A program made the translations under genes and the position numbers. Shown one piece after another: positions 11,411-45,726 of a stretch of 45,726 bases of DNA; the first letter of the stretch is position 1; each line of letters begins with the position of its first letter. The DNA comes from Clostridia bacterium (GTDB taxonomy: Bacteria > Bacillota > Clostridia > Christensenellales > Aristaeellaceae): assembly GCA_017396845.1 (NCBI GenBank), contig JAFQKQ010000015.1, positions 1-45,726 on the forward strand. Reading direction: 5' to 3'. The notes under the pieces were generated by a model that saw only the letters and a program-made list of their open reading frames with translations, was not told the DNA's origin and did not search any database.

Positions 11411-11490
11411 AACAATCAGAAAAGGTGTCGTATGCGTTGGAACGCCCAGGCTGCCGCCATCTTTACCAATTTAAGTGAGGGGATAGACTT

Positions 11491-13053: not shown

Positions 13054-13086
13054 GAGACAGACAGTTTGATAAAAACTGAATAGCAT

Positions 13087-23229: not shown

Positions 23230-23278
23230 AAATGGGCAAACGGTGAAACCGTTCAAAACAGTATGGGAGGAAACACAC

Positions 23279-24382: not shown

Positions 24383-24404
24383 TTAATAATCGCAATCAAT
24401 GAAG

Positions 24405-24437
24405 AGCGCTCCGGATTTCACCGGGGCGCTTTCTTTT
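24405..24437 (+). terminator. Terminator after the binding-protein gene
   Basis: A 10-bp stem (24405-24414 with 24421-24430, one G-T pair) followed by TTCTTTT. It would let the binding protein be made in excess over the membrane parts. Confidence 0.8.
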
Positions 24438-24478
24438 CATCATTCGAGGATTTTCGCGCAGTTTATGAAAAAAAGGAA

Positions 24479-24507
24479 TTGTAATTTACTCTTCTTTCAA
24501 GTATAAT
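24479..24507 (+). promoter_or_regulatory. Promoter for the nucleoside ABC ATPase-permease genes
   Basis: TTGTAA (24479-24484), 17 bases, perfect TATAAT (24502-24507), about 44 bases before the TTG start. Confidence 0.7.
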
Positions 24508-24550
24508 AGTATATATTATTGTGTAAACCTTTCAAAAGGAGAGATGCGCG

Positions 24551-26113: not shown

Positions 26114-26125
26114 GAGGCGTAGAAT

Positions 26126-27313
26126 ATGAATCATCTTGAAAAGCTGAAGCGCGGCTTGTCCACGGTTCTCTCTGCGCTGATCAGCGTAGCGATCGGTCTT
26201 GCATTCGGTTTCATTATTCTTTTCCTGCTTTCGCTTTCCACGTATGCTTCCGCCGGTGAACCTTTTACGCTGAAGCAGGTTTTTGACACGGCCTATAACG
26301 AAGGCTTTTTACGCCTGATGAAGGGCTGCTTCTACATGGTGAGACGCGGTCTTAAGACGGAAATCTCTCAGGCTGCGCCGCTTATTATGACGGGTCTTTC
26401 CGTAGCGTTTGCATTTAAGACGGGTCTTTTCAATATCGGCGCTGCGGGACAGTATACGCTGGGCGCTTTCGGCGCATTGTACTGCGCGATCGTGCTTAAG
26501 CTTCCGTGGTATCTGTGTCTGCTGGCCTCCGTGCTTTTTGGCGCGGTCTGGGGTGCGATTCCCGGTTTCTTCAAGGCATATTTTAAAATCAATGAGGTTA
26601 TCACCTCCATCATGTTCAACTGGATCGGCCTGTACGCGGTAAATACGCTCATTTACGGCGGAGGCACGGGCGCAATGTACTGCGCGAAGACGACGAAGAC
26701 CTGGGTAATCGGAAGCGGTGTATACGAAGGAACCACCATCCCCAATATAAGCGTGTTTCTTTCGGAAAAACCGCAGGGCCTGGGGTTGTATCTTAAGGAT
26801 ACTTCAATTGCTATCTTCTTTGCGATTATCATTGCAATCATTCTCTATATCATTATCAACAAGACCACTTTCGGCTACGAGATCCGCGCTTGCGGACACA
26901 GCCAGACAGCCGCGAAATACGCAGGCATCAGCGAAAAGAGAAACATCATTCTCTCCATGGCGATCGCAGGCGGACTTGCAGGCTTCGGCGCCGGCCTTTA
27001 CTATCTCTCCGGTGTTGCCGAATGGCAGCCGCTGGTTTCCACATCCCTTCCCGGCTTCGGCTTCGACGGCATTTCCGTGGCGCTGCTCGCGTCCTCAAAT
27101 CCCATCGGCGTAATATTCTCTGCATTGTTCATTGCGCATATTGATGTTGGCGGCGGCTACATGAACGCATCCTTCTTCCCGAGGGAGATTGCGGACATTG
27201 TATCGGGCATTATCATTTACCTCTGTGCGTTTATGCTTCTTTTCAAAACTGCGATTTCCAAGGGAATCAGCCGCGTATTCGGTGCGAAAAAAGAGCTTGA
27301 GGGGGGTAAGTAA
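26126..27313 (+). CDS. Nucleoside-type ABC transporter permease 1
   Basis: The 395-residue, very hydrophobic protein has about ten membrane segments and the BPD_transp_2 layout of NupP/YufP. The signature is a LIMTGLSVAFAFKTGLFNIGAAGQY segment split across two helices, with the TTFGYEIRACGHSQTAAKYAGI loop that contacts the ATPase. It starts 12 bases after the ATPase stop with GGAGG in front. It forms the membrane channel with the second permease. Confidence 0.95.
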   Translation: MNHLEKLKRGLSTVLSALISVAIGLAFGFIILFLLSLSTYASAGEPFTLKQVFDTAYNEGFLRLMKGCFYMVRRGLKTEISQAAPLIMTGLSVAFAFKTGLFNIGAAGQYTLGAFGALYCAIVLKLPWYLCLLASVLFGAVWGAIPGFFKAYFKINEVITSIMFNWIGLYAVNTLIYGGGTGAMYCAKTTKTWVIGSGVYEGTTIPNISVFLSEKPQGLGLYLKDTSIAIFFAIIIAIILYIIINKTTFGYEIRACGHSQTAAKYAGISEKRNIILSMAIAGGLAGFGAGLYYLSGVAEWQPLVSTSLPGFGFDGISVALLASSNPIGVIFSALFIAHIDVGGGYMNASFFPREIADIVSGIIIYLCAFMLLFKTAISKGISRVFGAKKELEGGK

Positions 27314-27315
27314 GC

Positions 27316-28245
27316 ATGCCTAACGAGATTCTGCTTCTGATTAAATACACCCTTTTGTATTCGAGCGTGCTTATGATGGTCGCTTTGGGCGGCATGTTCG
27401 CCGAAAGAAGCGGCATTATCAACATTGCGCTTGAAGGTATCATGGTTATCGGCGGTCTGATCGGCGTTCTTGCTACGCAGATGACGCATGGCATGAATCC
27501 GGTAATTCAGGTTGCGGTTTCCGTAATTGCTGCAGGCCTTGCGGGCATGATATACTCGATGCTTCTGGCCTTTGCCTCCATAAACCTGAAGGCCGATCAA
27601 ACGATCGGCGGTACGGCGCTCAATATTCTGGCGACGGCCATCGCGATGGTTATTGCAAAGAGGGTAAACGGTTCCCAGTCTTCGAAGCTCGACTATACGA
27701 ATTCCTCGTTTATATTCAATGTCTTCGGAATTGACGTAAACGTATTCCTCTTTATCGGACTTGTTTTCCTCATTCTGTCCTTTGTCATTCTCTACCGTAC
27801 GCGCCTTGGCCTGCGCCTTCGTGCCTGCGGCGAGCATCCACAGGCGGCGGACAGCGTAGGAATCAACGTATACAAGATGCGCTATATCGGCGTACTTCTC
27901 TCCGGCTTTCTGGGCGGTATCGGCGGCTTTGCCTATATCGTGCCTGCCGTTCAGTCCTGGAACTTTGAAGTGGGCGTCGCCGGCATGGGCTTCCTGGCGC
28001 TGGCCGTTATGATTTTCGGTCAGTGGCATCCCATCAAGATCTTCTTTGCGGCGATATTCTTCTCGCTCTTTAAGTCGCTTGCGAACATTGCAGACTCTGT
28101 ATCGTTCTTGAGCAGGCTGCAGTGGCCCAAGGAGATTTACAACATGATGCCCTTTATCGCTTCCATGGTCGTGCTGGCGCTGACCAGCGGACGAAGCAAA
28201 GCGCCCAAGGCGGAGGGCATACCCTACGACAAGGGTTCAAGATAA
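27316..28245 (+). CDS. Nucleoside-type ABC transporter permease 2
   Basis: The 309-residue hydrophobic protein is the NupQ/YufQ-type partner. It opens near YSSVLMMVALGGMFAERSG with IINIALEGIM, has the coupling loop TRLGLRLRACGEHPQAADSVGI, and ends in a short basic tail. It begins 2 bases after the first permease, so expression is coupled. A strong terminator closes the unit. Confidence 0.95.
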   Translation: MPNEILLLIKYTLLYSSVLMMVALGGMFAERSGIINIALEGIMVIGGLIGVLATQMTHGMNPVIQVAVSVIAAGLAGMIYSMLLAFASINLKADQTIGGTALNILATAIAMVIAKRVNGSQSSKLDYTNSSFIFNVFGIDVNVFLFIGLVFLILSFVILYRTRLGLRLRACGEHPQAADSVGINVYKMRYIGVLLSGFLGGIGGFAYIVPAVQSWNFEVGVAGMGFLALAVMIFGQWHPIKIFFAAIFFSLFKSLANIADSVSFLSRLQWPKEIYNMMPFIASMVVLALTSGRSKAPKAEGIPYDKGSR

Positions 28246-32198: not shown

Positions 32199-32227
32199 TT
32201 TACGTCTTGAAATCCGTAGCATATAAT
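32199..32227 (+). promoter_or_regulatory. Promoter for the putative sugar-uptake locus
   Basis: TTTACG (32199-32204), 17 bases, perfect TATAAT (32222-32227), followed by a ~60-base leader. No similar promoter is evident further along the locus. Confidence 0.55.
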
Positions 32228-32290: not shown

Positions 32291-33481
32291 ATGGTGTGCA
32301 TACCGAAAGATGAATACAACATTCGGGTAGCAAGGCTGCGCGAAGAAATGGCGAAGAAGGGCTATGACGCATGTCTGGTATACGGCGACGAATATCGCAG
32401 AGAGAATATTCGCTACATCGCCAACATATGGCCCATTTTCGAACGCGCTGCCGTGCTCGTTGGAAAAGAAGGCAATCCCATCGTACTCGGTGCGCCGGAA
32501 GGCGAGTTGCTGCTCAAGGAAATGAGCGCATTTGACGACATCCGATTGCTTCCGGAGTTTACCTGCGTAACGGTTCCGGATGAAATCGAGTATCCCTTTG
32601 CCAACTATACAACCTTCAAATCTCTGTTCAAAGAGATCGGTGAAATTAAAAAAATCGGCATTGTCGGCATCGATGCGATGTCCAAGCCGCTGTATGATAT
32701 TATTGCCGCTTCGCTTACCGGAATTGAAATCGAAGATGCAAATGACATTTTCTTCGCCATGAGACTCAGCAAATCCGAAAGCGAAGTAAAGTGCCTGCTT
32801 AAGGCCATTGAAATTGCGGACAAGGCCTATACGGAGCTTATGCGCGCAGCGAAGCCCGGCGTTACGGAGTTGTATCTTGCCGGCGTTGCGGTAGGCGAGT
32901 GCATGAAGCTCGGCGCGGAAAACGTTCCCTTCTGCCTGGTAACCTCCGGCGAGCGCGTAAAGACCATCATCGGCCGCGCAAGCAATAAGGTGGTTGAAGA
33001 GGGCGATATGGTAATGGCTGCGTTGGCCGTTCAGTATGAAGGCTATATTGCGTCGTTCAACTTCCCGTTCGTTGTCGGAAAGATGTCGCCTGAACAGCGC
33101 CAGCTGATCGATTGGCTCATCGGCTCTTATGAGAGCGCCATCGGACAGCTCAAGGCCGGCAATGAGCAGTGCAATCTCGTTAAGGCGGTTAAGAAATACT
33201 TCGCCGATAACGGACTTAGCGAATACGATCTGTATCCGCCGCTGCACGGCTGCGGTCTGTCGGAAGCGGAGAGCCCGTATCCGAACGAGAACGTACATAC
33301 GCCTTTTGTAAAGAACATGACCGTCAATACGGACATCAGCCTTTTCGGACATCCCTACGGCTCGAACCGAATTGAGGTAAGCTTTATCGTTACTGAAGAC
33401 GGTTATGAATCCCCGTCCATCCTGTTCAAGAAGCTGATCAGCGCGTGGAAAGATGGAAAGGATTACACCGAGGTTCTGTAA
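32291..33481 (+). CDS. M24-fold (creatinase/prolidase-like) protein lacking key metal ligands
   Basis: The 396-residue protein has a creatinase-type N-terminal domain (about 1-155) and a pita-bread M24 domain. The family motif GDLVLID reads GDMVMAA (Ala244 for Asp) and GYxSD reads GYIAS (Ser255 for Asp). The first His (319, LHGCG) and the late Glu (362, RIEV) remain, and the EPG Glu is replaced by Asp348. Without the two bridging aspartates, a dinuclear peptidase site is unlikely. It may be a non-peptidase like creatinase, or a binding protein. First gene of the Opp-type locus with a good ribosome site (GGAGGG), 46 bases before oppD. Confidence 0.85.
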   Translation: MVCIPKDEYNIRVARLREEMAKKGYDACLVYGDEYRRENIRYIANIWPIFERAAVLVGKEGNPIVLGAPEGELLLKEMSAFDDIRLLPEFTCVTVPDEIEYPFANYTTFKSLFKEIGEIKKIGIVGIDAMSKPLYDIIAASLTGIEIEDANDIFFAMRLSKSESEVKCLLKAIEIADKAYTELMRAAKPGVTELYLAGVAVGECMKLGAENVPFCLVTSGERVKTIIGRASNKVVEEGDMVMAALAVQYEGYIASFNFPFVVGKMSPEQRQLIDWLIGSYESAIGQLKAGNEQCNLVKAVKKYFADNGLSEYDLYPPLHGCGLSEAESPYPNENVHTPFVKNMTVNTDISLFGHPYGSNRIEVSFIVTEDGYESPSILFKKLISAWKDGKDYTEVL

Positions 33482-33527
33482 GGCGCAAAAGAAAATATGA
33501 ATTCTAAAAAAGAAAGGGTGTCGTTGT

Positions 33528-34520
33528 TTGAGTGAAAAATTGCTGGAAGTGCGTGACCTAAGCGTAAAATTCAAAACCGTTAACGGTCTGGTCAACGCGC
33601 TCAATGGCGTAAGCTTCGACATCCTGCGCAATGAAAGCGTCGGGTTTGTCGGAGAGTCCGGCTGCGGAAAGAGCGTTACAGCGCGTGCGGTTATGCGAAT
33701 TCTGGAAAAGAACAGCGTAATGACGGGCGATGTAAAGCTTTTCACGGACAATCAGGAAATCATGATCTCAGCGTACAAGCAGAAGGATGACAAGCTCAGA
33801 AGCATACGCGGCGGAAAGATTTCCATGATTTTCCAGGAGCCGATGAGTTCCCTGTGCCCGGTCTATACCGTCGGAAATCAGCTGATCGAAGCGATTCGTC
33901 TGCACAGCGATAAAACCAAGAAGGAAGCCAGAGAAATCGCCATTGAGTATCTTGCCAATGTAGGAATTTCAAGGCCTTCAAAGCTGATTGACGAATATCC
34001 CTATCAGTTAAGCGGCGGTATGCGCCAGAGAGTGGTTATCGCCATGGCGCTCTCGTGCAATCCGGAGCTTTTGATTGCCGATGAACCTACCACTGCGCTG
34101 GATGTAACGGTATCCGCTCAGATACTGAAGCTGCTTGAAGAACTGCGCGAAAAGCACAACATGTCGGTTATGATGATTAACCACAATCTGGGCGTAATTG
34201 CGCAGACCTGTTCCAGAGTATTCGTCATGTACCTTGGCCGTATCGTTGAAGCTGCGTCCGTAGATGAGATTTTCGATCATCCCATGCATCCGTACACGAT
34301 CGACCTTCTCAATTCCATACCGCGCCTCAACATGGCGCGCGGCGGAAAGCTTGCGAGAATCCGAGGATATGTTCCGGATCCTCTGAACATTCCCAAGGGC
34401 TGCGCCTATCACAACCGGTGCAGAAGCTGCGTCAAGGGAACCTGCGATGAATGCATTCCCGAGATGGTTGAGGTTCGTCCCGGACATTACGTAGCGTGCA
34501 GCTGCGCAGGGGAGGTGTAA
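33528..34520 (+). CDS. Opp/Dpp-family ABC transporter ATP-binding protein (OppD-like)
   Basis: The 330-residue protein has Walker [10 protein letters not shown] (Lys48), Q-loop FQEPMSSL, signature LSGGMRQR, Walker [13 protein letters not shown] and a switch His in INHNLG. The C-terminal oligopeptide-transporter extension has a Cys-rich tail (CRSC, CDEC). Start is TTG. It pairs with the OppF-like protein 3 bases downstream. Sugar-specific members of this family use identical ATPases, so substrate cannot be read from it. Confidence 0.95.
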
Positions 34521-34523
34521 TAG

Positions 34524-35519
34524 ATGGCAGACATCTTTACCATTAACAATCTTCAGATGTACTACCCGATCAAAAAAGGTTTTACTAAAAAGCTGATCGG
34601 TCATGTGAAGGCTGTAAACAATGTTTCCCTGACGATTCACGAAGGCGAAACGCTGGGCGTTGTAGGCGAGTCCGGATGCGGAAAGAGTACGCTTGGCAAC
34701 TGCATCATTCGCCTGATCAATCCCACCGGCGGCGAAATCATCTACCACAGGGAAAACGGCGAGAGCATAAACCTTGTCGGAATGCCGGATAAGGAACTGA
34801 AGTTCTACAGAAAAGAAGCCCAGCTGATTTTTCAGGATCCGTATTCTTCTTTAAATCCCCGAAAGACCGTTCGCGATCTGGTCGGCGAGCCGCTTCTGGT
34901 AAATGATATTTGCGATAAGAGCGAAATCAACAACCGCGTCGGTACAATGCTCAGAAGAGTCGGTCTTCGCGCCGAATACATGAAGCGTTACCCGCACGCA
35001 TTTTCCGGCGGACAAAGGCAGAGAATATCCATTGCCAGAGCGCTCATCATGAGACCCAGATTCGTAATCTGCGATGAAGCGGTTTCCGCATTGGACGTTT
35101 CCGTACAGGCGCAGGTAATCGAGCTTCTGCGCGATCTGCAGGCGGAGTACAAAAACACCTATCTGTTCATATCGCATGATTTGAGTGTCGTCAAGCATAT
35201 TTCCGATAGAATCATGGTAATGTACATGGGCAGAGTGGTGGAGATGTGCGAATCCGACGAGCTTTTCAGGAACACACTTCACCCGTACGCGAAAGCGCTC
35301 ATCGACGCGGTTCCGGACGTCGATAAGACCCGCCACAAGACTCCGAACGTCGTAAAGGGCGAAGTCGGTGACGCAACCAAGGATATTCCAGGATGTGCGT
35401 TTGCGCCCAGATGCAAATACGCAACGGACATCTGCTTAAAGGAACATCCGCCCCTTGTGAACGCGGGCGGCGAAGGCGATCAGGAGCACTGGGTGTGCTG
35501 CCACAATCGTTTAGGATGA
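34524..35519 (+). CDS. Opp/Dpp-family ABC transporter ATP-binding protein (OppF-like)
   Basis: The 331-residue protein has Walker [10 protein letters not shown] (Lys54), Q-loop FQDPYSSLNPRKTV, signature FSGGQRQR, Walker B FVICDEAVSALD and switch His in ISHDLS. The family's C-terminal PGCAFAPRCKYA extension follows. It should form a heterodimer with the OppD-like subunit that drives the two permeases encoded downstream at 39844-42004. Confidence 0.95.
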   Translation: MADIFTINNLQMYYPIKKGFTKKLIGHVKAVNNVSLTIHEGETLGVVGESGCGKSTLGNCIIRLINPTGGEIIYHRENGESINLVGMPDKELKFYRKEAQLIFQDPYSSLNPRKTVRDLVGEPLLVNDICDKSEINNRVGTMLRRVGLRAEYMKRYPHAFSGGQRQRISIARALIMRPRFVICDEAVSALDVSVQAQVIELLRDLQAEYKNTYLFISHDLSVVKHISDRIMVMYMGRVVEMCESDELFRNTLHPYAKALIDAVPDVDKTRHKTPNVVKGEVGDATKDIPGCAFAPRCKYATDICLKEHPPLVNAGGEGDQEHWVCCHNRLG

Positions 35520-35542
35520 CCCTTATCCCCATGGTTCCACTG

Positions 35543-35593
35543 ACCGGTTTTCAAGCAAGCGGAAGAGGCCTTTGCGCAACTGAAAAAGCCGGT
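35543..35593 (+). other. Imperfect hairpin in the leader of the binding-protein gene
   Basis: accggttttca (35543-35553) can pair with tgaaaaagccggt (35581-35593). It lies between oppF and the GGAGG site of the binding protein and could act as an mRNA-processing or stabilising structure. Evidence is base pairing only. Confidence 0.35.
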
Positions 35594-35620
35594 TATGAAT
35601 AATAAAAAGGAGGTACCACA

Positions 35621-37489
35621 ATGAAACTGAGAACAACCGTATCCCGTATCCTGTGCATGCTTCTGGTGTGCATGCTCTTCTCCGGCGCTTGCCTGGCAGA
35701 AGGCGCAAACAAGATGGTTGTCACCCCCAAGGAGTCCGTAGGCGTATACGGCGGAACGCTGTATTCTGCATTCCCCAAGGGCTACGCAGGACAGGCCTGG
35801 CAGACTCTCGGCTTCTATGAGCCCATCCTCGGCTGGAACGCCGACAAGTCCGCAAAGGTTCCGAACCTTGTAGAAACCTTTGAAATGTCCGAAGACGCGA
35901 AGGTCTTCACCCTCACCATACGCGAAGGCCTCACCTGGTCCAACGGCGATCCCGTAACCACCGAGGACGTTCGTTACCAGTATGAAGATGTTCTCCAGAA
36001 TCCCAGCCTGTACACTTCTTTCCCGACCGACTACATGGCCGGCGGCGAGAAAGTTCAGCTTGAGATCGTAGACGAGCGAACCTTCAAGCTCATCTTCAGC
36101 GTTCCGAACCTTCTGTTCGACAACACTCTCGTACTGCAGGGCTCCAGCAACCTGCTCTTCAGCCCCTCTAACTACCTCAAGCAGTTCAACGACAAGTATG
36201 TTGAAGTTGAGAAGCTCAATGAGATGGCAACGGCAGAAGGCTACGATGACTGGACCAAGCTGTATCATGAGAAGAATGGTGAATTCACCAACCCCGATCG
36301 TCCTTCTCTGTATGCATGGGCTCTCACCAGCATATCCGATGATGACAAGGTTTACGTTGCAACCCGCAACCCCTACTACCACAAGGTAGACACCGAAGGC
36401 AACCAGCTGCCCTACATCGACAACGTACAGGTTGAGTATGTAGACAACCTTGAAACCCTGAAGGTTAAGGTTATGGCCGGTGAAGTTGATTACATCAACG
36501 CTCCCATCGGTGAGAACTTCGCCGAGTGGCCGGTTCTTGCGCAGAATGCTGAAGTTGGAAATTATCGCCTGCTCCTTGCCGGCGCCGATTTCTGCGGTAT
36601 CTTCAACATCATGCCCAATCTTGCCAACCAGGATCCCCAGAAGGGCCCCCTGCTTCAGGACAAGAACTTCCGTATCGCTCTGTCTCACGCCATCAACCGT
36701 CAGGAGATCATTGACCTGCTCGCAACTGTAGCTACCTTCCAGGGCGAACCGGTTCAGACTCCCCACATCGTATCCGCTTCCCAGTTCCACAACGAGACTC
36801 TGGCCAAGCAGTACACCGAGTACAATCCTGAGCTTGCCAACCAGATGCTCGACGAACTCGGACTCACCGCACGCGGCGAAGACGGCTTCCGCCTTGGCCT
36901 CGACGGACAGCCCATGGCCTTCACTCTCTCCGTTCCCGGCGAGTTCTCTGACCAGTGGGTAAACGGCGCTCTGATGATCGCTGAGTACTGGAAGGCAGTC
37001 GGCCTGAACTTCGAAGTAAAGAACATGGCTGCTGACATCTGGAACGAGCTCGTAGCCGCCAACGGCAGTGAAGTTACCATCCTTTCCACCGGCTCCGGCG
37101 GAATGATGACCCTCAACGAGCCCCACGTCCGCGCATATGCTTGCGTAGCTCCCAGCTGGTACACCTATTGGGGATATGCCTACGGTCAGTGGGTTGCCAC
37201 CGAAGGCGCTGCAGGCATCGAGCCCCCGGCCGAGATTCTGAAGCTCAACGACCTGTACAACGAAGTACTGGTTGCCACCAGCATGGAAGCTGCTGCTGCC
37301 AAGCTTAAGGAACTCACCGATGCGTTCGCAGATGTATTCCCGCAGATGGGTATCTCCACGCCGCTGCCCTCCTTCTGCGTAGCGACCAACAGAATTAAGA
37401 ACGGCCCGTCTGATTACGATCCTTATGTAACCTTCGCATTCGGCGTAGGCGGAACCGTAGATTCCTGCCAGTGGTACATTGCCGAATAA
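35621..37489 (+). CDS. Family 5 (Opp-type) extracellular solute-binding protein, probably for oligosaccharides
   Basis: The 622-residue protein has a signal peptide (about 1-26). It then has the SBP_bac_5 fold: YEPILGWNADKSAKVPNLVETF, LTIREGLTWSNGDPVTTEDV and FRIALSHAINRQEI. It is longer than peptide-binding members and resembles the sugar-binding branch known from Thermotoga-type Opp transporters. Cys24 is present but the surrounding FSGAC is not a canonical lipobox, so lipid anchoring is doubtful. Codons are strongly C-biased, suggesting high expression. AAGGAGG lies 8-9 bases before ATG, and hairpins flank the gene on both sides. Confidence 0.92.
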   Translation: MKLRTTVSRILCMLLVCMLFSGACLAEGANKMVVTPKESVGVYGGTLYSAFPKGYAGQAWQTLGFYEPILGWNADKSAKVPNLVETFEMSEDAKVFTLTIREGLTWSNGDPVTTEDVRYQYEDVLQNPSLYTSFPTDYMAGGEKVQLEIVDERTFKLIFSVPNLLFDNTLVLQGSSNLLFSPSNYLKQFNDKYVEVEKLNEMATAEGYDDWTKLYHEKNGEFTNPDRPSLYAWALTSISDDDKVYVATRNPYYHKVDTEGNQLPYIDNVQVEYVDNLETLKVKVMAGEVDYINAPIGENFAEWPVLAQNAEVGNYRLLLAGADFCGIFNIMPNLANQDPQKGPLLQDKNFRIALSHAINRQEIIDLLATVATFQGEPVQTPHIVSASQFHNETLAKQYTEYNPELANQMLDELGLTARGEDGFRLGLDGQPMAFTLSVPGEFSDQWVNGALMIAEYWKAVGLNFEVKNMAADIWNELVAANGSEVTILSTGSGGMMTLNEPHVRAYACVAPSWYTYWGYAYGQWVATEGAAGIEPPAEILKLNDLYNEVLVATSMEAAAAKLKELTDAFADVFPQMGISTPLPSFCVATNRIKNGPSDYDPYVTFAFGVGGTVDSCQWYIAE

Positions 37490-37526
37490 TCCGTATTCGG
37501 TAAAACAAAAAGTAGCTTAGCAATTG

Positions 37527-37561
37527 GGAGCGGCGCACGCGGCCTCGGGCGCCGCTCCTTT
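37527..37561 (+). terminator. GC-rich hairpin after the binding-protein gene (attenuator)
   Basis: A 10-bp perfect stem (37527-37536 with 37549-37558) with only three Ts after it. Weak termination here would make more binding protein than downstream products. Confidence 0.7.
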
Positions 37562-37574
37562 CGTAGGGAGGAAC

Positions 37575-38351
37575 ATGTTTGATTGTATTATAGCTGTCAA
37601 CAGCCTTGAGCACGTAGAGAAAATACGTGTCTACCTTCAGCAAGGCGGATTCCCGGTCAACGTAATCGGCGCCTTAACGGAGGGAGAAGGCTTATTTAAA
37701 ATTATTTCAGAATTTCAGGTAGATGTATTGATTATTGAGGCCGACCTGAAAAATATGATGGGGTTCCAGGCTCTTAAAGAAGCGCTGCAGCCACAGCCAC
37801 ACTGCGCAGTTGTGCTTGCAAGCGAACGGGAGGATTTTTCCTACGAACACGCAAGTCAGGCGATCGAAGCCGGCGTTCAGGGGTATATTCTCCTTCCTGT
37901 AGAAGAAAAGCATCTGTCCAGGGCGATGGGCAGCGTACTCAAATATCTGTACGATCACAATGCCGGAAATAACAGCTTAAGCGGAGCAGAGCCGATTAAG
38001 CAGGAGCCGGCAGAAGAAAGCAAGAGTGCAGAGCTTGCAGAAAGCATATACCGGTTTATCGAAAAAAATCACGTACAGCCGCTTCAGATTAAGGATATTA
38101 TGAATCATTTTCATATTTCAGAATCCTATGTGAACCGGCTTCTCATGAAAAATTTCGGAAATTCATTCAAGAAAATACTAAACAGAGCCCGGCTTGAAGA
38201 GGCGCGCAAGCTGCTTAGAGAAAAGCCGAATCTGCCCATTAATGAGATAGCAATTAGCGTTGGGTATCAGGACGTCTATTATTTCTATCGTTTGTACAAG
38301 GCCACTATGGGCGTAACCCCGTCCGCAGACCGCGAAAACGGTGGAGAATAG
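37575..38351 (+). CDS. AraC-family regulator with a degenerate receiver domain
   Basis: The 258-residue protein has a receiver-like domain (about 1-125) and a C-terminal AraC double helix-turn-helix (about 155-250; HFHISESYVNRLLMKNFGNSF... and AISVGYQDVYYFYRLYK). In the receiver part the acidic pair is Asn9-Ser10, the phosphoacceptor position holds Glu55 and the Pro-adjacent Lys is Leu107. Normal phosphorylation is therefore unlikely. No kinase gene is near. GGGAGG before ATG 37575 fixes the start. Probably the local regulator of the sugar locus, possibly sensing a ligand directly or being always active. Confidence 0.9.
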   Translation: MFDCIIAVNSLEHVEKIRVYLQQGGFPVNVIGALTEGEGLFKIISEFQVDVLIIEADLKNMMGFQALKEALQPQPHCAVVLASEREDFSYEHASQAIEAGVQGYILLPVEEKHLSRAMGSVLKYLYDHNAGNNSLSGAEPIKQEPAEESKSAELAESIYRFIEKNHVQPLQIKDIMNHFHISESYVNRLLMKNFGNSFKKILNRARLEEARKLLREKPNLPINEIAISVGYQDVYYFYRLYKATMGVTPSADRENGGE

Positions 38352-38364
38352 CAGGAGTGGAAAC

Positions 38365-39828
38365 ATGCATTTACTAAAATCATTTGAGGAATCCAACAAG
38401 GATACATACGGCGATTTGCTCAGCGCAAGGCGTGAACGCCGAAAGATTACCGTAGGCCTGATTCTGTTCGGGTATTTCGAATACTGGCGCATGTTCCCGG
38501 AATCCTTGCGCATACAGGTGGAAGAAGATCTGAAGTTTGTAGAAGAAAAGCTGAGGGAAAAATACGAACTGATCTCTACCGACGTAGTTGATACTCTGGA
38601 CGCTGCAGATATATCAGGCAGGATATTAAAGGAAAATCAGGTGGACGCGGTGGTGCTGGTAATGGGTACGTATGTGCCGGATTACATTACCATGCATGCG
38701 CTCAATTATGTAAGGGATGTGCCGCTTCTGATTTTCAGCGCGCAGCACATGAAAACCATTTCCGACGAAAGCACCTACATGAACCATGCCCGTGATTCCT
38801 GCCTTACCGGCACGGCTCAGCTGACGGCAACGCTTAAGAAGATCGGCAGGAAGCACACAACCGTGGTGGGAAGCGTAAATGACGAAGCAGCGTACAAAAA
38901 AATCGGGCGCTTCCTAAACGCCATTCAGGCGATTGTGGATATAAAGGAAGCCAATATCGGTATCCTCGGAAACGTATTTCGCGGCATGTACGATATCGAG
39001 CTTTCAAAGACGTTCCTGAAAGGATGCTTTGACGTAAACGTCATTTATATTCAGGAGTCACACCTGGTTGAATCGTGGGAGAATACCACGGAGGCAGAGA
39101 CCAAAGAGGTTGCCGAACAGCTGCTAAAGCGGTTTAAAACGCGAACGGTGACGGAGCAGGATATTTTACGGGCTTGCAGGCTTGCAATAGCCCTTGAAAA
39201 ACTGGTCGACCGCTACAGGCTGGATGCGCTGTGTCTTTTGGATCAGCACTATCTGCAGCGGCTTTTCAGAACCACCTCCCGAATCGGCGCATCGCTCCTG
39301 CTGGAGGAAAAAAACATTCCGGTAAGCTGCGAAGGCGACCTTGGAAGCATTGTCGTTGCAATGCTAATGCAGTCACTGACCGGGAAAAACCCGATGCAAG
39401 GCGGCTGGTGCGGATACGATGAAACATTAAATGCCTGCCTGATCGGAGGGCACGGCGTAGCCGATCCGAGAATGGCGGGCGGCGATGAAAAAATCACGCT
39501 CACCCGAACACCGGAGGTGTGGGGCATGGAAGGCGTAGGACTGAACTACGAGTTCATTGTCAAACCCGGCATATGCACCATCGCTTCGCTTCTTGAAAAG
39601 CAGAACGGCTACAGCATGATGATTTCAAAGGCGGAAAGTATTCAGCATAATCCCCTGAATAACGATGAATTGTATGCGTTTTTAAAGGTGGATATGCCGG
39701 TAAAGGAATATCTGGAGAAAATATTCGAATTCGGCGTAACTCAGCACTGCATGCTGTCGCATGACGATGTGCAGAATGAGCTTAAGGTGGTAGCGGATTA
39801 CTTTGGACTTGAAACAATGGTTCTATAA
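38365..39828 (+). CDS. L-fucose/L-arabinose isomerase-like protein
   Basis: The 487-residue protein has the three-part FucI/AraA layout. An N-terminal Rossmann-like domain carries FGYFEYWRMFP and VVLVMGTYVPDY. The middle has a helical segment. The C-terminal half has SCEGDLGSIVVAMLMQSLTG (Glu323, Asp325), GGHGVADPRM (His363) and FIVKPGICTIASL. These residues correspond in the family to metal and substrate positions of aldose-ketose isomerases. AGGAG lies 7 bases before ATG 38365. Placed between the regulator and permease genes, it probably isomerises the imported sugar or a product; the true substrate is unknown. Confidence 0.87.
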   Translation: MHLLKSFEESNKDTYGDLLSARRERRKITVGLILFGYFEYWRMFPESLRIQVEEDLKFVEEKLREKYELISTDVVDTLDAADISGRILKENQVDAVVLVMGTYVPDYITMHALNYVRDVPLLIFSAQHMKTISDESTYMNHARDSCLTGTAQLTATLKKIGRKHTTVVGSVNDEAAYKKIGRFLNAIQAIVDIKEANIGILGNVFRGMYDIELSKTFLKGCFDVNVIYIQESHLVESWENTTEAETKEVAEQLLKRFKTRTVTEQDILRACRLAIALEKLVDRYRLDALCLLDQHYLQRLFRTTSRIGASLLLEEKNIPVSCEGDLGSIVVAMLMQSLTGKNPMQGGWCGYDETLNACLIGGHGVADPRMAGGDEKITLTRTPEVWGMEGVGLNYEFIVKPGICTIASLLEKQNGYSMMISKAESIQHNPLNNDELYAFLKVDMPVKEYLEKIFEFGVTQHCMLSHDDVQNELKVVADYFGLETMVL

Positions 39829-39843
39829 GCAGGGGGTGTACAA

Positions 39844-40827
39844 ATGGGCAGGTATTTATCAAAGCGCTTTGTGTACATGGTACTGATGTTGGTGGCTGTA
39901 ACAATCGTTACGTTTGTTGTAATTCAGCTGCCTCCGGGAGACTATCTGACGACCTATATCAATTCCTTGCAGGCGAAGGGTCAGAAAGTGAATCAGGAAG
40001 AGGTCGAAAGACTTACAAAGCTGTACGGCCTTGATCAGCCGATGTGGAAGCAGTTTATCAACTGGGTTTCCAACTTCCCGAAGGGCAACTTCGGTTATTC
40101 ATTTTCGCACGCCAGACCCTGTATAGAAGTAATCATTCCCGCATTCAAGACTTCTCTTATGATTGCTGTGATCGTATTTGTTACGACGACGCTTCTGGGC
40201 TTTTACATCGGCTACATTACGGCTCTTCGTAAGAATACCATCGTTGACTACACGGCTTCTTTCCTGGGAACGGTCGGCATGTCGGTTCCGGCGTTTGTAA
40301 CCGCCTTGATTGCGCTATGGTTCATGTTTAAGTGGACTGGAAAAAGCTGGGCGGGCATGTATTCCAGAGAATACCTTGCGGCGCCCATGAGCTGGGGCAA
40401 ATTCTGGGACGGCCTAAAGCACATGCTGTTGCCGATCTGCGTAATCACGTTTGCCAATCTGTCCGGTTTCAAGGGCGTAAGAGCCAACATGCTGGATGAA
40501 ATCAACAAGCCTTACGTAGTTACCGGCAGAGCAAAGGGTATGAAGGAAGGAAAACTCCTTACGAAATATCCCTTCCGCATGGCAATCATTCCCAACATGG
40601 GATCCGCCGGTCTTGCTATTCCGATGCTGATCAGCGGTGAAGCGATTTGCGGTATTGTACTCAATCTCCCGACGCTGGGCCCGCTGATGCTGAACGCACT
40701 GAAATCTCAGGATATGTATCTGGCCGGCGCAATTCTTCTCATTCAGAGCGCAATGACGCTTGTCGGCGTACTGATCAGCGATATTCTTCTTGCACTCATC
40801 GACCCGCGTATTCGTCTGGATAGTTAG
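39844..40827 (+). CDS. Opp-family ABC transporter permease (OppB-like)
   Basis: The 327-residue protein has six membrane segments. The N terminus has the family MGRYLSKRFVYMVLMLVAVT style. A periplasm-facing loop carries YGLDQPMWKQFINW, and the coupling loop is RAKGMKEGKLLTKYPFRMAIIP. It starts 15 bases after the isomerase gene and precedes the OppC-like gene by 13 bases. Confidence 0.95.
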   Translation: MGRYLSKRFVYMVLMLVAVTIVTFVVIQLPPGDYLTTYINSLQAKGQKVNQEEVERLTKLYGLDQPMWKQFINWVSNFPKGNFGYSFSHARPCIEVIIPAFKTSLMIAVIVFVTTTLLGFYIGYITALRKNTIVDYTASFLGTVGMSVPAFVTALIALWFMFKWTGKSWAGMYSREYLAAPMSWGKFWDGLKHMLLPICVITFANLSGFKGVRANMLDEINKPYVVTGRAKGMKEGKLLTKYPFRMAIIPNMGSAGLAIPMLISGEAICGIVLNLPTLGPLMLNALKSQDMYLAGAILLIQSAMTLVGVLISDILLALIDPRIRLDS

Positions 40828-40840
40828 GAGGGAAACTGCA

Positions 40841-42004
40841 ATGTCGGAAGAGAAGCTTAAGATTCAGGTAACCAACATTGAAGAGACAGAGAATCTGGAT
40901 GAAACGAGTCAGGGCGAAGAAATCTTCATGGCGAGGCCCATCGTAATGATGTGGTGGAAATTCAAGAAGAACAAGATGGCGGTTATTTCGCTGATCTTCC
41001 TGATTCTGATGTACTTGATCGCCATATTCTGCGAATTTGTCGCGCCCACGGATCCGTATAAGATTCATTCAGACCGCGCGTACCTGCCTCCGCAGAAGAT
41101 TGAGTTTGTAGGAAAAGACGGTTTTTCGCTGGTTCCGCATGTGAATCCGTTCAAGGTTGAATACGACATGAAAACCTTCGCGAAGATTTACAAGTCGGAT
41201 GAAGACGTGGAATGCAAGCTCGGCTTCTTTGTAGAAGGCACGCCCTATAAGCTCTGGGGAGTCTTTGACAGCAACATCCATCTGTTCGGACCTACCGATC
41301 CCGATGTTCCTTTCCATCCGCTGGGAACGGATAAAATGGGACGCGACATGCTTTCGAGAATCATTTACGGCGTTCGAATCTCGACAAGTATCGGTCTGCT
41401 CGGCGTAATCATTTCTCTGGTACTGGGCGTTCTGCTCGGAGGTATTTCCGGTTACTTCGGCGGAGCGGTTGACATTGTCATTCAAAGAATTATCGAATTC
41501 ATTTCCTGTATACCTACATATCCCTTGTGGATGGCGCTATCGGCTGCCTTGCCTGTCCATTGGCCGCAGATGTATGTATACTGCGGCATGGTAGTCATTT
41601 TGTCCCTGGTCGGCTGGACGGGCATGGCCAGAACGGTTCGCGCGAAGTTTATATCCCTTCGCGAAGAGGACTTCATAAAGGCAGCAAAGGTAATTGGCGC
41701 AAGCAATATGCGAATCATCGTAAAGCACATGGTGCCTTCCTTTATCAGCTACCTGATTGCCAGCATGACGCTTTCCATCCCCGGCATGATTCTCGGCGAA
41801 ACCTCGCTTAGCTATCTGGGACTGGGCCTTCGCGAGCCCACCATCTCCTGGGGAGTAATTCTTCAGCAGGCGCAGAACCTCAACAGCATTGTAAGCTATC
41901 CCTGGCTGCTTTTGCCGGCTGCGATTCTCGTAGTTACGGTTCTTGCATTCAACTTCGTGGGCGACGGCTTCAGAGATGCAGCTGACCCGTACAGCAACGA
42001 ATAA
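40841..42004 (+). CDS. Opp-family ABC transporter permease (OppC-like) with large outside insertion
   Basis: The 387-residue protein is longer than peptide-type OppC. About 110 residues (roughly 68-170) lie between the first and second membrane segments, ending in the FHPLGTDKMGRDMLSRI motif. Such insertions are typical of oligosaccharide-transporting Opp relatives. The coupling loop is RTVRAKFISLREEDFIKAAKVIGAS and the ending is LNFVGDGLRD-like. GGAGGG 9 bases upstream supports ATG 40841 rather than the earlier in-frame start overlapping OppB. Confidence 0.94.
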   Translation: MSEEKLKIQVTNIEETENLDETSQGEEIFMARPIVMMWWKFKKNKMAVISLIFLILMYLIAIFCEFVAPTDPYKIHSDRAYLPPQKIEFVGKDGFSLVPHVNPFKVEYDMKTFAKIYKSDEDVECKLGFFVEGTPYKLWGVFDSNIHLFGPTDPDVPFHPLGTDKMGRDMLSRIIYGVRISTSIGLLGVIISLVLGVLLGGISGYFGGAVDIVIQRIIEFISCIPTYPLWMALSAALPVHWPQMYVYCGMVVILSLVGWTGMARTVRAKFISLREEDFIKAAKVIGASNMRIIVKHMVPSFISYLIASMTLSIPGMILGETSLSYLGLGLREPTISWGVILQQAQNLNSIVSYPWLLLPAAILVVTVLAFNFVGDGFRDAADPYSNE

Positions 42005-42016
42005 CAGGAGGAGCAT

Positions 42017-44047
42017 ATGGACTTTTTTCATCAGGACTCATGGCAGAAATTTACGTGGATTGAGTTAACCGGTTTTGACCGCGAAAAAGAAGATTTTGGC
42101 GTAGAAGACTTTTTGCACCGCACAGGCTTTGTGCCCACCGGCGTATCGTTTCTTCTGTACTGGGTTGGCTTTGTATTCAGTCATGACGGGCTTGATGTAG
42201 AAAAGCCGCTCAGCATTGCGGAGGACAGCTACGGCGCGCATCCCTACGCGCCGGAGCGTCCGAGGCAGAATTGGACAAATTTCGAATTCAAGGGTTTGAT
42301 TGATGAGCTTCACAAGCACGGAATCAAGGTCTACATGAGCTACTTTAACATGCTCTCTTACTCGGATGATGACGATAATACCGTCATTCATCCGGCGTTT
42401 GAGGGTTGGCACGACAAGATCATGGTCGAAAACCGCGAAGGGAAGCCTTGCGGCGGCATAAACGTTTTAAGGCGCATGATCAACGGCGAGTATTTTGAAG
42501 ATAAGCTGATTGAAAAGACCGTTTCGGCCATGAACGACTATGGCTTTGACGGAATTCAGATTGCCGATGGTATTTCTTCCCCGCGTGTAACCCTTGAACA
42601 GGGATGTTTTTCCAAGGACATGCTCGAGCAGTTCGCCGATGCAACCGGAATTGTCGCACCGGAAGGCGGGAACGCGGGCAAATGGATCTGGGAAAACAAG
42701 AGATGGGAATGGATTAATTTCAATACCGACCGCTGGGAGATTTTCTATAAGAAGTTTATCGGCGCGGTCAAAGATGCGGGCAAGGAAGCCGTATTCAACA
42801 GCGCATGGACGCGCGATCCCTTTGAAGCCATGTACCGTTACGGCGTAGACTACAGAAAGGTTGCAAAGACCGGCGTCGACGGCTGCATGGTAGAGGATAC
42901 CAGCGCGGGACTTGCAATTCTTTCCGAAGAGGACAACCTGTATCTGATGACGGATGCGCAGCGTAAGCGCGTTCACTATGAGTTCCTTTCGGTTCTCATG
43001 ATGAACCGAGCCGCCATGCCGGATGTCAAGATTACGCCTCTTGCCGGCGTCCATGACACCATGGAGCAGTGGGGCGTGTTTGAACACATGCCTACGGCAA
43101 TGACGAGAAACGTAATGAACAACCTTGAGACCTTTATCATCAATAAAGACGGTCTTAAACCGATTACGGACGGCCCCTTCTTCTGCTTAAGTGATGGACT
43201 TAGCAAGACGGACTGGGATTTCATTAAGAAGCAGTGGGAGATCGGCGCGATTGAAAAGGCGACGGGCGTTTCCGGCGCTACCGTAATCTGGTCGGACGCA
43301 AGAGTGGATCATGAGCTCAAGGCGTTTATCAAAAACAGAAATACACCTACGCACCGTCTGGTTTCCGAGCTTCTATACGCCGGAGCCAACCTGTACTCCA
43401 TTGCGAGAATCGAGGATATCGATTCTGTGAACGGACCGATTCTGGTTACGAATCCCGGGCTTTTGCCGGAATACGAGCTTAAAAAGGTGCTCTCCTTTAA
43501 AAACGGAAGCGTGTTCCTGATCGGCGACGGCGCAAAGAGAGACGGCTTTGAAGAAGCGGTGTTTGAGGAAAACAGCTTCGGCTCCATTTGCATTACGGTA
43601 AACGGAATGATCAGCGAGAAAAAGAGTATTAAAAACGAAAAGAGCTATGATTTTGACCCTGTAACGGGACTTGAGAAGGTGGAAGCGATCTGGACGCATC
43701 CGCTGTGCTTCCAGCCGGTAACCGGAGAGTTTTTCCTGAAGGCGGCAGACGTAATCAATGAAATGACCAATGCGCCCACGACCAATAAGGAAATCGTTTC
43801 AGAGGACGGAAGCATAAAGCGCCCCTGCAAATGCATTATGACATTTACCGGTGAAAAGACCGCGAGAGTGCTTTTGACAAACGACGATTATTTCTACAAT
43901 CTTCCCAAGGTCGACCTTAAGCGGAAGATAAAGGCTATGAAGTGTCTGACCAAATATGACGGCTATCAGGTGAAATTTACGTCATCCGTATTTGGCGCCA
44001 GAGTGCCCGGTAGAGGCGCAGAGGCGTATGAGGTAGAATTTGAGTAG
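42017..44047 (+). CDS. Unrecognised, possibly glycoside-hydrolase-like protein, copy 1
   Basis: I cannot assign this 676-residue protein to a named family. It has a TIM-barrel look: beta-strand ends such as HGIKVYMSYFN, YGFDGIQIADG (Asp178, Asp184), EAVFNSAWTRDPFEAM and GVDGCMVEDTSAG (Glu293, Asp294). A second part (about 440-676) looks like a GATase-like region plus a beta-sandwich, as in multi-domain glycosidases. No signal peptide, so it acts inside the cell. Paralogue of the protein starting at 44485: both share FxWxxLxGFD, a Trp-rich WIW segment and TxDPFESM-type motifs. AGGAGG precedes the ATG. Candidate acids are Asp184 and Glu293/Asp294. Confidence 0.85.
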   Translation: MDFFHQDSWQKFTWIELTGFDREKEDFGVEDFLHRTGFVPTGVSFLLYWVGFVFSHDGLDVEKPLSIAEDSYGAHPYAPERPRQNWTNFEFKGLIDELHKHGIKVYMSYFNMLSYSDDDDNTVIHPAFEGWHDKIMVENREGKPCGGINVLRRMINGEYFEDKLIEKTVSAMNDYGFDGIQIADGISSPRVTLEQGCFSKDMLEQFADATGIVAPEGGNAGKWIWENKRWEWINFNTDRWEIFYKKFIGAVKDAGKEAVFNSAWTRDPFEAMYRYGVDYRKVAKTGVDGCMVEDTSAGLAILSEEDNLYLMTDAQRKRVHYEFLSVLMMNRAAMPDVKITPLAGVHDTMEQWGVFEHMPTAMTRNVMNNLETFIINKDGLKPITDGPFFCLSDGLSKTDWDFIKKQWEIGAIEKATGVSGATVIWSDARVDHELKAFIKNRNTPTHRLVSELLYAGANLYSIARIEDIDSVNGPILVTNPGLLPEYELKKVLSFKNGSVFLIGDGAKRDGFEEAVFEENSFGSICITVNGMISEKKSIKNEKSYDFDPVTGLEKVEAIWTHPLCFQPVTGEFFLKAADVINEMTNAPTTNKEIVSEDGSIKRPCKCIMTFTGEKTARVLLTNDDYFYNLPKVDLKRKIKAMKCLTKYDGYQVKFTSSVFGARVPGRGAEAYEVEFE

Positions 44048-44070
44048 GCAATGATGAAAGGGGAAGCACA

Positions 44071-44445
44071 ATGGAAAACGGCAAAAAGAATTGGTATATC
44101 GTTGACGGTTACCTGCCCTATCCCGGAGAGGTAAAGGATGCTGACTTTGCCGGCCATGAGGCGGTAATGCTCTTGAATTGCAACGAGAGAGACGCGCATG
44201 TATTCCTGGATTTCTATTTCGAAGACCGTGACCCCGTGAAAGACGTGCCGATCACCGTCAAAGCGGAGCGCGTACTGTGCCTGAGAATGGATAAGCCGGA
44301 AGAAATCGGCGGCGTGAAGCTTGACAGACAGCAGCAGTATTCCCTTCGCGTAAGAAGCGACGAGAATATCATTGTGCAGTACGGAAGAATGGATATCGCA
44401 CAGCCCAACCTCGCATACATCGGCCTTATGGGCTATCATGAGTAA
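44071..44445 (+). CDS. Sensory rhodopsin transducer (ASRT/DUF1362)-like protein
   Basis: The 124-residue protein aligns by eye along its length with the Anabaena sensory rhodopsin transducer: a KNWYIVDGYLPYPG opening, HEAVMLLNCNERDAHVFLDFYFEDRDPV, ITVKAERVLCLRM, and a YSLRVRSDENIIVQYGRMD ending. That protein is a small soluble all-beta tetramer. Members occur in many bacteria without rhodopsin, and small-molecule or carbohydrate binding has been proposed for the family. No rhodopsin gene is here. It is wedged between two paralogous glycosidase-like genes (23 and 39 bases away), so a ligand-binding role in the same pathway is the natural inference. Confidence 0.88.
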   Translation: MENGKKNWYIVDGYLPYPGEVKDADFAGHEAVMLLNCNERDAHVFLDFYFEDRDPVKDVPITVKAERVLCLRMDKPEEIGGVKLDRQQQYSLRVRSDENIIVQYGRMDIAQPNLAYIGLMGYHE

Positions 44446-44484
44446 GCGTATAGCGGATAACTACTGCGAAAGGAATGGAAGCGT

Positions 44485-45726
44485 ATGAGAGAGAAGGATA
44501 AGCGCTTTATTTGGATGCAGCTTCTGGGCTTCGACAAGAATGACCCTGACAGGGGAGCCAAAAGATATATTGACCAGATCGGCTTTGTGCCGGACGGTAT
44601 CTGCGCATTGACGTTTCATCCGGATCTTGTAAATCAGTTCAGGGGAATGGATGAGGAATACATCCTTCCGCCGGACATCTGCGCTTATTACGGCATTCCG
44701 AGAAACATCGAAAGAGAACGTCAGGAGTGGAGCAATCACGACCTGCGTGTGCTGTGCCATGAGCTTAAGAATCTGGGCAGCGGACTGTATGCGTCCGTCA
44801 TGGGAAGCTATCTCGATAATATGTTCCACCAGGAATGGCTTAGCGACCATAAGGAGCTCAGATACCGCGCAAGAAACATGTGGGGCACGCTGAACTGCCT
44901 TAAGAGATTCAAGGACGGAACCTATTACGAGGACTTCCTTGCGGATAAGCTTGCTGAAACGCTTGTTGCGTATGGCTTTGAAGGCGTTCACCTGACCGAT
45001 GCTTTCTGCCCGCTTATGAATAGCCGCTATGACGGCGACTTCTCTACAGATATGGTCATGCAGTTTATCGAGCACACCGGAATCGAAGTGCCCGCGGACA
45101 TCAGAGCGACCTTCGGAAACGATGATGATGACAAAGCGATCAATCAGCGCGGCGACTGGATCTGGAACAACTACAAAATCGAATGGCTGAAGTTCTTCGA
45201 CTGGAGATGGGAATGCTTCTTTAAGAAGCTGTGCGCAAAGCTTCACGCAGTAGGAAAGAAAGTGCTGGTACTTGGTATGTACTGCACCGATCCCTTTGAG
45301 TCCATGTTCATGATGGGCTTCAGCATTAAGACGGTCATCAACGCTGGCGTCGACTACATTATGCCGAACATCGTTCCCACGGGAATGTATATGCAGACCG
45401 GACAGTCCTTCTTCCAGCGCTATTTCAACCAGATTCCGCTGATCCGCGCACAGACGCCGGAAGGAAAGTATCTTAGCATGCTGGGCGTTCAGGACGCCAG
45501 CGAAGAGTGGAACATCCTCAATCACGCGCCCTGCAAGCTGGAAAGAGATATGTATACCATGTTCTCGTTCCAGTATGTGGACGATGTCAGCAGCCATCGT
45601 TCAATGAACGGACTGATGGTATGCCTTGGCGACGGCATTCCCTCCAAGGATTGGAGATGGATGAACGAAAGACTCGATATCGCGTTCTCCATGGACGCGG
45701 ACGGCGTGGAAGGCCCGCTGGTCGTA
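44485..45726 (+). CDS. Unrecognised, possibly glycoside-hydrolase-like protein, copy 2 (3' truncated by window)
   Basis: ATG 44485 (AAAGGA upstream) opens a frame that runs off the window after 414 residues. It is a diverged paralogue of the protein at 42017-44047, with FIWMQLLGFD at the start and YGFEGVHLTDAF (Asp172, matching Asp184). It also has RGDWIWNNYKIEWLKFF (matching the WIW segment) and CTDPFESM. The segment matching Glu293-Asp294 of copy 1 reads Pro294-Asn295, so one candidate acid pair is missing here. The insertion between strands differs as well. The two probably act on different linkages, or one is non-catalytic. Confidence 0.85.
   Translation, partial: MREKDKRFIWMQLLGFDKNDPDRGAKRYIDQIGFVPDGICALTFHPDLVNQFRGMDEEYILPPDICAYYGIPRNIERERQEWSNHDLRVLCHELKNLGSGLYASVMGSYLDNMFHQEWLSDHKELRYRARNMWGTLNCLKRFKDGTYYEDFLADKLAETLVAYGFEGVHLTDAFCPLMNSRYDGDFSTDMVMQFIEHTGIEVPADIRATFGNDDDDKAINQRGDWIWNNYKIEWLKFFDWRWECFFKKLCAKLHAVGKKVLVLGMYCTDPFESMFMMGFSIKTVINAGVDYIMPNIVPTGMYMQTGQSFFQRYFNQIPLIRAQTPEGKYLSMLGVQDASEEWNILNHAPCKLERDMYTMFSFQYVDDVSSHRSMNGLMVCLGDGIPSKDWRWMNERLDIAFSMDADGVEGPLVV

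Follow-up and report, generated by a model that had tools for sequence, protein, structure and literature searches.

In our study, we analysed one complete contig (JAFQKQ010000015.1, 45,726 nucleotides, hereafter the window) of the 73%-complete draft genome of a Clostridia bacterium of the family Aristaeellaceae (GCA_017396845.1). Eleven tightly packed open reading frames of the plus strand, designated A to K, were found to span positions 32291–45726. They encode an M24-fold protein (A), an Opp-type importer (B, C, D, G and H), a receiver-AraC regulator (E), an isomerase-like protein (F), two glycosidase-like proteins (I and K) and a protein of the ASRT family (J). This operon probably serves the uptake and the intracellular breakdown of an oligosaccharide, which is perhaps plant-derived and acylated. 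The arrangement is beyond chance, since these genes are found together in various combinations in further genera and phyla. A further reading, which we put forward as possible but doubtful, is that the M24 and ASRT genes form an undescribed unit, in which the substrate or product of a metal-free M24 enzyme would be bound by an ASRT clade devoid of the pocket Cys. The unit would be coupled to interchangeable hydrolases (a phosphotriesterase-like protein, often with two amidohydrolase-like proteins, or a creatininase-fold protein) in a sugar-catabolic route of Clostridia, Paenibacillaceae and a spirochaete, the ASRT following the metabolite and not one M24 partner.

Recurrence of the gene set and the M24-ASRT pair

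The glycosidase-like family of I and K was rare, being present in 3 of the 297 genomes of the order (its own included) and in its own genome only among 398 of the phylum. The genome collection contained 54 loci of this family, which by their titles belong to Bacillota, Chloroflexota, Armatimonadota, Lentisphaerota, Kiritimatiellota, Spirochaetota, Omnitrophota and one actinobacterium (Jiangella). These loci are not all independent, as several are near-copies (L031/L036, L034/L035 and L045/L046, for example) or share a genome (L011 and L013, clusters of Paenibacillus baekrokdamisoli, with L020). Their neighbours were searched by tblastn at E 1e-4 in flanks of at most 10 kb, many of the contigs being short, and the absence of a gene often remained unseen. 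The M24 gene was found in 18 of the 54 loci, with 55–61% identity in 13 and 24–25% in L030, L031, L033, L036 and L056 (a putative match in L056), followed by ASRT in 14, the phosphotriesterase-like gene in 13 and the isomerase in 10. The preliminary description of this DNA had proposed a search for co-occurrence of ASRT-, glycosidase- and isomerase-like genes; all three, together with M24, were present in nine loci (L009, L011, L013, L016, L017, L018, L029, L033 and L047) of Paenibacillus, Cohnella and a Clostridia bacterium, the ASRT match of L009 covering just 20 residues. Eight of the nine contained the phosphotriesterase-like gene, which is absent from the operon of the window. Apart from L047, these loci showed, whole or nearly so, the arrangement phosphotriesterase-like, degenerate amidohydrolase, amidohydrolase, isomerase, M24, ASRT, with no call of the degenerate amidohydrolase in L016.

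The ASRT family gave 91 matches in 71 of 391 Clostridia genomes. In 18 of 20 loci with wide flanks, which were hand-picked from 27 scoring 103.7–117.8 bits, M24 and the ASRT were direct neighbours or had a single gene between them. The two exceptions were L118, which ends shortly after the ASRT, and L119, which contained a phosphotriesterase, both amidohydrolases and the isomerase instead of M24. No M24 was seen beside the 30 best-scoring ASRT loci (L061–L090) within flanks of at most 1.5 kb. A search of 291 Clostridia genomes, fewer than for the ASRT, with the M24 profile (E limit 1e-40) gave two score classes, whose bands were set after looking. Above 170 bits, an ASRT was present within 1.5 kb in 28 of 47 matches, with a median gap of 26 bases; at 139–152 bits it was present in 0 of 18 among the matches listed (below 160). 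None of the 42 ASRT matches of at least 129 bits had such an M24 neighbour. One of the 19 high-scoring M24 genes without a near ASRT is A itself, whose ASRT lies 10.6 kb off in the same operon, and eight of the 19 adjoin a phosphotriesterase-like or creatininase-fold gene.

These two hydrolase types were not found together. Among 30 M24 loci with flanks of about 1.5 kb, 10 contained the phosphotriesterase-like gene, seven the creatininase-fold gene and none both; in the overlapping set L109–L136, the counts were 5, 14 and 0 of 28. The creatininase-fold gene, without a phosphotriesterase-like gene, was located near M24-ASRT pairs in L112, L117, L121, L124–L132, L134 and L136, and the one member scanned matched PF02633; its score against IolN (3-dehydro-scyllo-inosose hydrolase) was 53.7 bits at a cut-off of 245. 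In L149–L153 and L156, related M24 proteins were accompanied by a close phosphotriesterase-like gene, and the ASRT was not nearby. When the isomerase profile was run on 297 genomes, the four strongest matches scored 426–789 bits and the next 159. These four stood beside M24 (L111 and L113), two genes off (L112) or in the same operon (the window), and three of them were accompanied by an ASRT. In L112, a creatininase-fold gene was present between the isomerase and the ASRT, and no phosphotriesterase was seen.

In Anabaena, the ASRT is a known partner in light signalling. J matched PF07100 at 113.7 bits (cut-off 25) over profile positions 2–118 of 119; this bears out the earlier call of an ASRT homologue, which recurs as part of the system. 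At the place of the SHEshChhN signature of the family (PMC2739507), J contained GHEAVMLLN, in which the pocket His and the Asn are conserved (as also the signature Trp) and Met takes the place of the pocket Cys. All 35 M24-side ASRT rows contained GHE without Cys, whereas Cys was accompanied by SHE or SHD in all 30 high-scoring rows. When the 65 ASRTs were placed in an IQ-TREE tree, a branch with support 100/99 separated the 35 M24-side rows from the others; rows were sampled by score and the split in part reflects this sampling, yet motif and gene context agree. The ASRTs of Clostridia thus appeared as two groups, SHE/SHD with Cys and no M24 seen nearby, and GHE without Cys. The nearest relative of J was the ASRT of L119 (73–74% identity). 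The ASRTs of L033 and L122 were 65 and 69% identical to J, and their adjoining M24 proteins were only 25% identical to A; the ASRT therefore does not depend on a single M24 type. Binding of a shared metabolite by the ASRT is thereby favoured over the role of an obligate M24 subunit.

De Souza, Iyer and Aravind (2009; PMC2739507) proposed that solo ASRT proteins are sugar-related and act in sugar sensing; the neighbours that they report include isomerase, aldolase, kinase, ABC transporter and amylase genes. The label "rhodopsin-transducer-like" of the preliminary description thus holds as a family name only, and the sugar link of the ASRT had already been argued. In common with the published solo family, J has sugar isomerase and ABC transporter genes in its cluster; unlike it, the clade of J contains GHE..M/I/V and not SHE..C, and kinase and aldolase genes of the published sugar operons are missing from the operon of the window. 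An M24 partner is not mentioned in the main text of PMC2739507, and no description of the M24-ASRT pairing was found in the literature searched, largely at listing level. Plasmid ASRT neighbours (4 of 77 records, with an incomplete gene table) included GH15, pyruvate oxidase, amylase, SDR and MFS proteins, and no M24 was named.

The component proteins

A matched PF00557 at 89.3 bits (cut-off 23), with both N- and C-domain profile matches in common with the M24 family (PepQ, creatinase, ectoine hydrolase). In M24 enzymes, D, D, H, E and E serve as metal ligands. When A was aligned to E. coli YpdF (D212, D223, H292, E321 and E335), these positions were occupied by A, S, H, D and E. The earlier wording of an M24 protein without metal ligands was hence slightly too strong, as three ligands are changed and two retained. 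In all 37 sequences covering the sites (from a set of 38, some of them without an ASRT in the available flanks), both Asp ligands were lost (A/N/G/Q at the first and S/T/A/I at the second position), the first Glu was substituted by Asp, and the His and the last Glu were conserved. A thus belongs to a group that differs from the known M24 enzymes in its altered ligands and in being linked to ASRT as well as phosphotriesterase- or creatininase-like genes.

I and K are paralogues with 28% identity over 429 columns and, as read by eye, no obvious signal peptide. The paralogy of the two glycosidase-like proteins was therefore confirmed; the assignment as glycosidases is weak. None of the 40 members of the family alignment exceeded a cut-off in Pfam or NCBIfam. 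Their best glycoside hydrolase (GH) type match was GHL6 (E 0.0014), which two of the 40 reached. Profile-profile comparison with GHL6 proteins gave P 0.0013 and a probability of 18% over 360 columns, against P 0.12 and 0.34 for two unrelated profiles. The GHL6 proteins (PDB relative 6tvk, an alpha-L-fucosidase, whose family we take to be GH151) are of similar length; the profile alignment is weak, too weak for membership, and no shared catalytic pair was shown. A PDB search with the 40-row profile gave one match at E 0.28 and no credible one. When I was searched alone, the best match (E 0.0075) was a C-6' aminotransferase, which was taken as chance. A tree of 54 rows placed K in a clade of 27 rows (SH-aLRT 100) and I in a group of four rows with L006, L007 and L026, which sits inside a group of nine. 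Both types were present in the window, L007 and L026, whereas L016 of Cohnella contained one K-clade member and one member of a Paenibacillus group. In L004 and L023, a SASA-type esterase domain precedes the glycosidase-like domain in one fused protein of 956 residues. Esterase genes were also located near the cluster in L011 (weakly), L018, L033 and L119.

The Opp/Dpp importer was complete, as the preliminary description had claimed, with a solute-binding protein, two permeases and two ATPases. B, C, D and H exceeded their Pfam cut-offs (D matched SBP_bac_5 at 165.7 bits); G, scanned with NCBIfam only, matched Opp4B at 197 bits, below the equivalog cut-off of 450. The insertion of H was likewise seen, being large relative to E. 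coli OppC and retained in Litorilinea (L007). The best PDB relatives of D were 5ipw (244 bits) and the pectin-binding SPH1118 (207 bits). By name or description, five of the 22 PDB sequences listed are sugar-binding: 7ver and 7veq (SPH1118, pectin), 6epy (alpha-galactoside), 4pfu (mannoside) and 1zty (chitin oligosaccharide). The SPH1118 importer (PMC9314435) also has an SBP_bac_5 protein of about 620 residues; a pectin-degrading gene was not recognised in the operon of the window.

Peptide-binding names are borne by many of the PDB sequences related to D, the nearest one among them, and this suits a salvage system for peptides or amides. Here the compound taken up by the importer would be amide-linked or glycosylated; amide-type bonds would be cleaved by the M24, amidohydrolase and creatininase-fold proteins, and the remainder handled by the sugar enzymes. 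The M24, creatininase-fold and amidohydrolase superfamilies are rich in C-N hydrolases, and M24, PF02633 and Amidohydro_2 matches are all among the neighbours. The pectin-, galactoside-, mannoside- and chitin oligosaccharide-binding relatives of D, however, point to sugars, as do the isomerase, ASRT, GH20, GH36-type and GH3 neighbours, and we consider such salvage unlikely.

The OppD, OppF, solute-binding, OppB and OppC proteins of L007 were 71, 62, 50, 67 and 67% identical to those of the window, and their genes stand between two glycosidase-like genes. Only in the window and L007 were closely related Opp genes joined with glycosidase-like genes. The Paenibacillus clusters scanned contained a BPD_transp_1 pair and SBP_bac_1, with best NCBIfam matches of the GlcU/UgpE type under the cut-off. 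Conservation of the cluster does not extend to the type of transporter. An Opp-glycosidase-like cluster may therefore merely meet here with an M24, isomerase and ASRT set of another job, as L007 lacks matches to the latter three and the M24-ASRT-isomerase set of Paenibacillus has another transporter. Against such a chance meeting, the glycosidase-like family was present in both settings (only partly telling, as the loci were found by searching for it), the genes of the window interleave with overlaps and short gaps, and L026 of Oscillospiraceae contained a glycosidase-like, an M24 (61% identity) and a K-type gene in a row. The meeting of two separate sets thus appears quite improbable, and slightly more so than salvage.

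F matched the equivalog profiles of SftI (NF048012, 76 bits at a cut-off of 700, F residues 97–494) and AraA (36.8 bits at a cut-off of 622) far below their cut-offs, and some 445 positions of the isomerase profile could be aligned with E. coli AraA. The FucI/AraA-like isomerase of the preliminary description is thus upheld as an AraA/SftI-like fold, with an altered active site in the window copy. E306, H350 and H450, which are ligand residues of AraA together with E333, have conserved equivalents in F, and the fourth is not conserved. F contained GGW where its relatives contain EW, with Gly in place of the Glu one column from E333. This Glu was conserved in all ten relatives of the profile, and the window alone among 17 aligned rows contained Gly; a distant paralogue (L116) contained Asp. 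Two more residues conserved in the ten relatives, the Glu that follows and the His preceding H450, are likewise missing from F. As these three residues are replaced, F may have lost its activity, may have a changed one or may serve in regulation. Further isomerase-like genes were found on contigs 30 and 45 of the source genome.

The best-named match of F is sulfoquinovose isomerase, which raised the candidate of a sulfoquinovose (sulfo-TAL/TK) operon. The relative of F in L011 (Paenibacillus) reached 129.8 bits with NF048012; the score of F itself is far under the cut-off, and sulfoquinovosidase, transaldolase and transketolase gave no match among the ten genes scanned per library, the rest of the genome not being searched. 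The candidate was rejected as highly improbable.

E matched PF00072 at 39.5 bits (cut-off 30.2). In an alignment with the receiver of L011, the phospho-Asp was substituted by Glu, in agreement with the phosphorylation-dead receiver described earlier; read by eye, the Lys and the acidic pair appeared changed as well. From these residues we infer that E would not be phosphorylated in the usual way.

Probable uptake and breakdown of an oligosaccharide

In the reading that we consider probable, the Opp importer would bring an oligosaccharide into the cell, where I and K would release sugar units. F would act on the released aldose or, in this genome, only bind it. Like creatinase, A would do without the usual two metals in cleaving a C-N, C-O or C-C bond, and J would bind the sugar or an intermediate and report to, or position it for, A or the regulator. 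The phosphotriesterase-like and two amidohydrolase-like proteins of the relatives, or alternatively the creatininase-fold protein, are encoded near M24 and may carry out ring-opening or deacylation; in the window, such hydrolases would lie beyond the contig end or be missing. The phosphotriesterase-like gene gave no match elsewhere in the source genome, which is 73% complete, in a search without a positive control. The broken end of contig 45 of this genome (11719–14109; L185) contained a second, distant set, namely an isomerase-like gene (24% identical), an amidohydrolase-like gene (44–45%) and a cut degenerate amidohydrolase (58%), and the other genes of the contig matched Hsp70, hrcA and lepA.

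Several points weigh against this reading. No part of the system has a demonstrated substrate, and no kinase or aldolase was found in the operon. I and K had no match at cut-off in Pfam or NCBIfam, and their glycosidase assignment is weak. Twelve of the 22 PDB relatives listed for D, including the nearest, 5ipw, are named solely as oligopeptide- or peptide-binding proteins, and NikA is also among the 22. The active site of F is altered in this genome, and the isomerase was seen in merely 10 of the 54 loci, with many short contigs. No ASRT was seen in the available flanks of L026, which has M24, and no M24, ASRT or isomerase near the glycosidase-like genes of L007 (Litorilinea, Chloroflexota). 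Opp genes and the M24-ASRT-isomerase set were found in one cluster only in the window, and their link to each other is transitive.

The preliminary description had taken the genes as one sugar-uptake and catabolism system, which shuffled neighbours in related genomes would speak against. Such shuffling was seen in part: gene order and transporter type varied, whereas the M24-ASRT-isomerase core was not scattered and recurred in nine loci. The single-system reading is largely supported. As it had also stated, no named pathway with this set was found. Of its suggested substrates, nothing points to an unusual deoxy-sugar; for a plant glycan there is weak context only, namely the recurrent SGNH/SASA-type esterases, the kinship of D with a pectin-binding protein, and many relatives from ruminant gut and Paenibacillus by record titles.

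Operon layout and significance

The features of the operon are listed in Table 1. The gaps from A to K were 46, 3, 101, 34, −11, 15, −38, 12, 23 and 39 bases. The eleven consecutive plus-strand genes described earlier were hence confirmed; their spacings, given there as 3–101 bases, range from −38 to 101, as E/F and G/H overlap if the listed starts are used. The true start of H is probably the ATG at 40838. K is incomplete because the contig ends there. About 420 bases stand upstream of A before its start. The promoter match in Table 1 is weak evidence, as the region contained 10 promoter-type matches, fewer than the mean of 14.0 in shuffled sequences.

Table 1. Genes and other features of the operon in the window
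Feature	Position	Strand	Description	Basis
Promoter	32199..32227	+	Sigma-70-like match, 10/12 positions, upstream of A	
A	32291..33481	+	M24-fold (creatinase/prolidase-like) protein	Pfam, alignment
B	33528..34520	+	OppD-type ATPase	Pfam/NCBIfam
C	34524..35519	+	OppF-type ATPase	Pfam/NCBIfam
D	35621..37489	+	SBP_bac_5 solute-binding protein, 622 residues	Pfam, PDB sequence relatives
E	37524..38351	+	Receiver-AraC regulator, Glu in place of phospho-Asp	Pfam, alignment
F	38341..39828	+	AraA/SftI-like isomerase-fold protein	NCBIfam, alignment
G	39844..40827	+	OppB-type permease	NCBIfam
H	40790..42004	+	OppC-type permease with large insertion	Pfam, alignment
I	42017..44047	+	Glycosidase-like protein, 676 residues, no family	No Pfam match at E<0.1
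J	44071..44445	+	ASRT-family protein, M24-side clade, signature GHEAVMLLN	PF07100
K	44485..45726	+	Glycosidase-like paralogue of I, other clade, cut by contig end	

An Rfam scan at gathering scores gave nothing but one tRNA. Elsewhere in the window, 23243–28245 contained genes for a Bmp/PnrA-type binding protein, an ATPase and permeases, presumably a nucleoside-type ABC importer. Long open reading frames without a Pfam match on the strand tested were present at 20686–21825 (minus strand, region 20686–21828) and 11491–13050 (plus strand, region 11416–13086); in 11416–13086, both strands are open.

Sugar-utilisation clusters are a known kind, and the M24-ASRT module, of which no description was found in the literature searched, is the part worth following. 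The family of I and K, without Pfam or NCBIfam assignment here, may represent a new glycoside hydrolase family. The role of the ASRT in rhodopsin-free bacteria rests on the sugar-sensor proposal of 2009 (PMC2739507). An ASRT clade with a recurrent partner gene gives handles on that role, namely the partner enzyme, the pocket residues and cultured hosts such as Paenibacillus.

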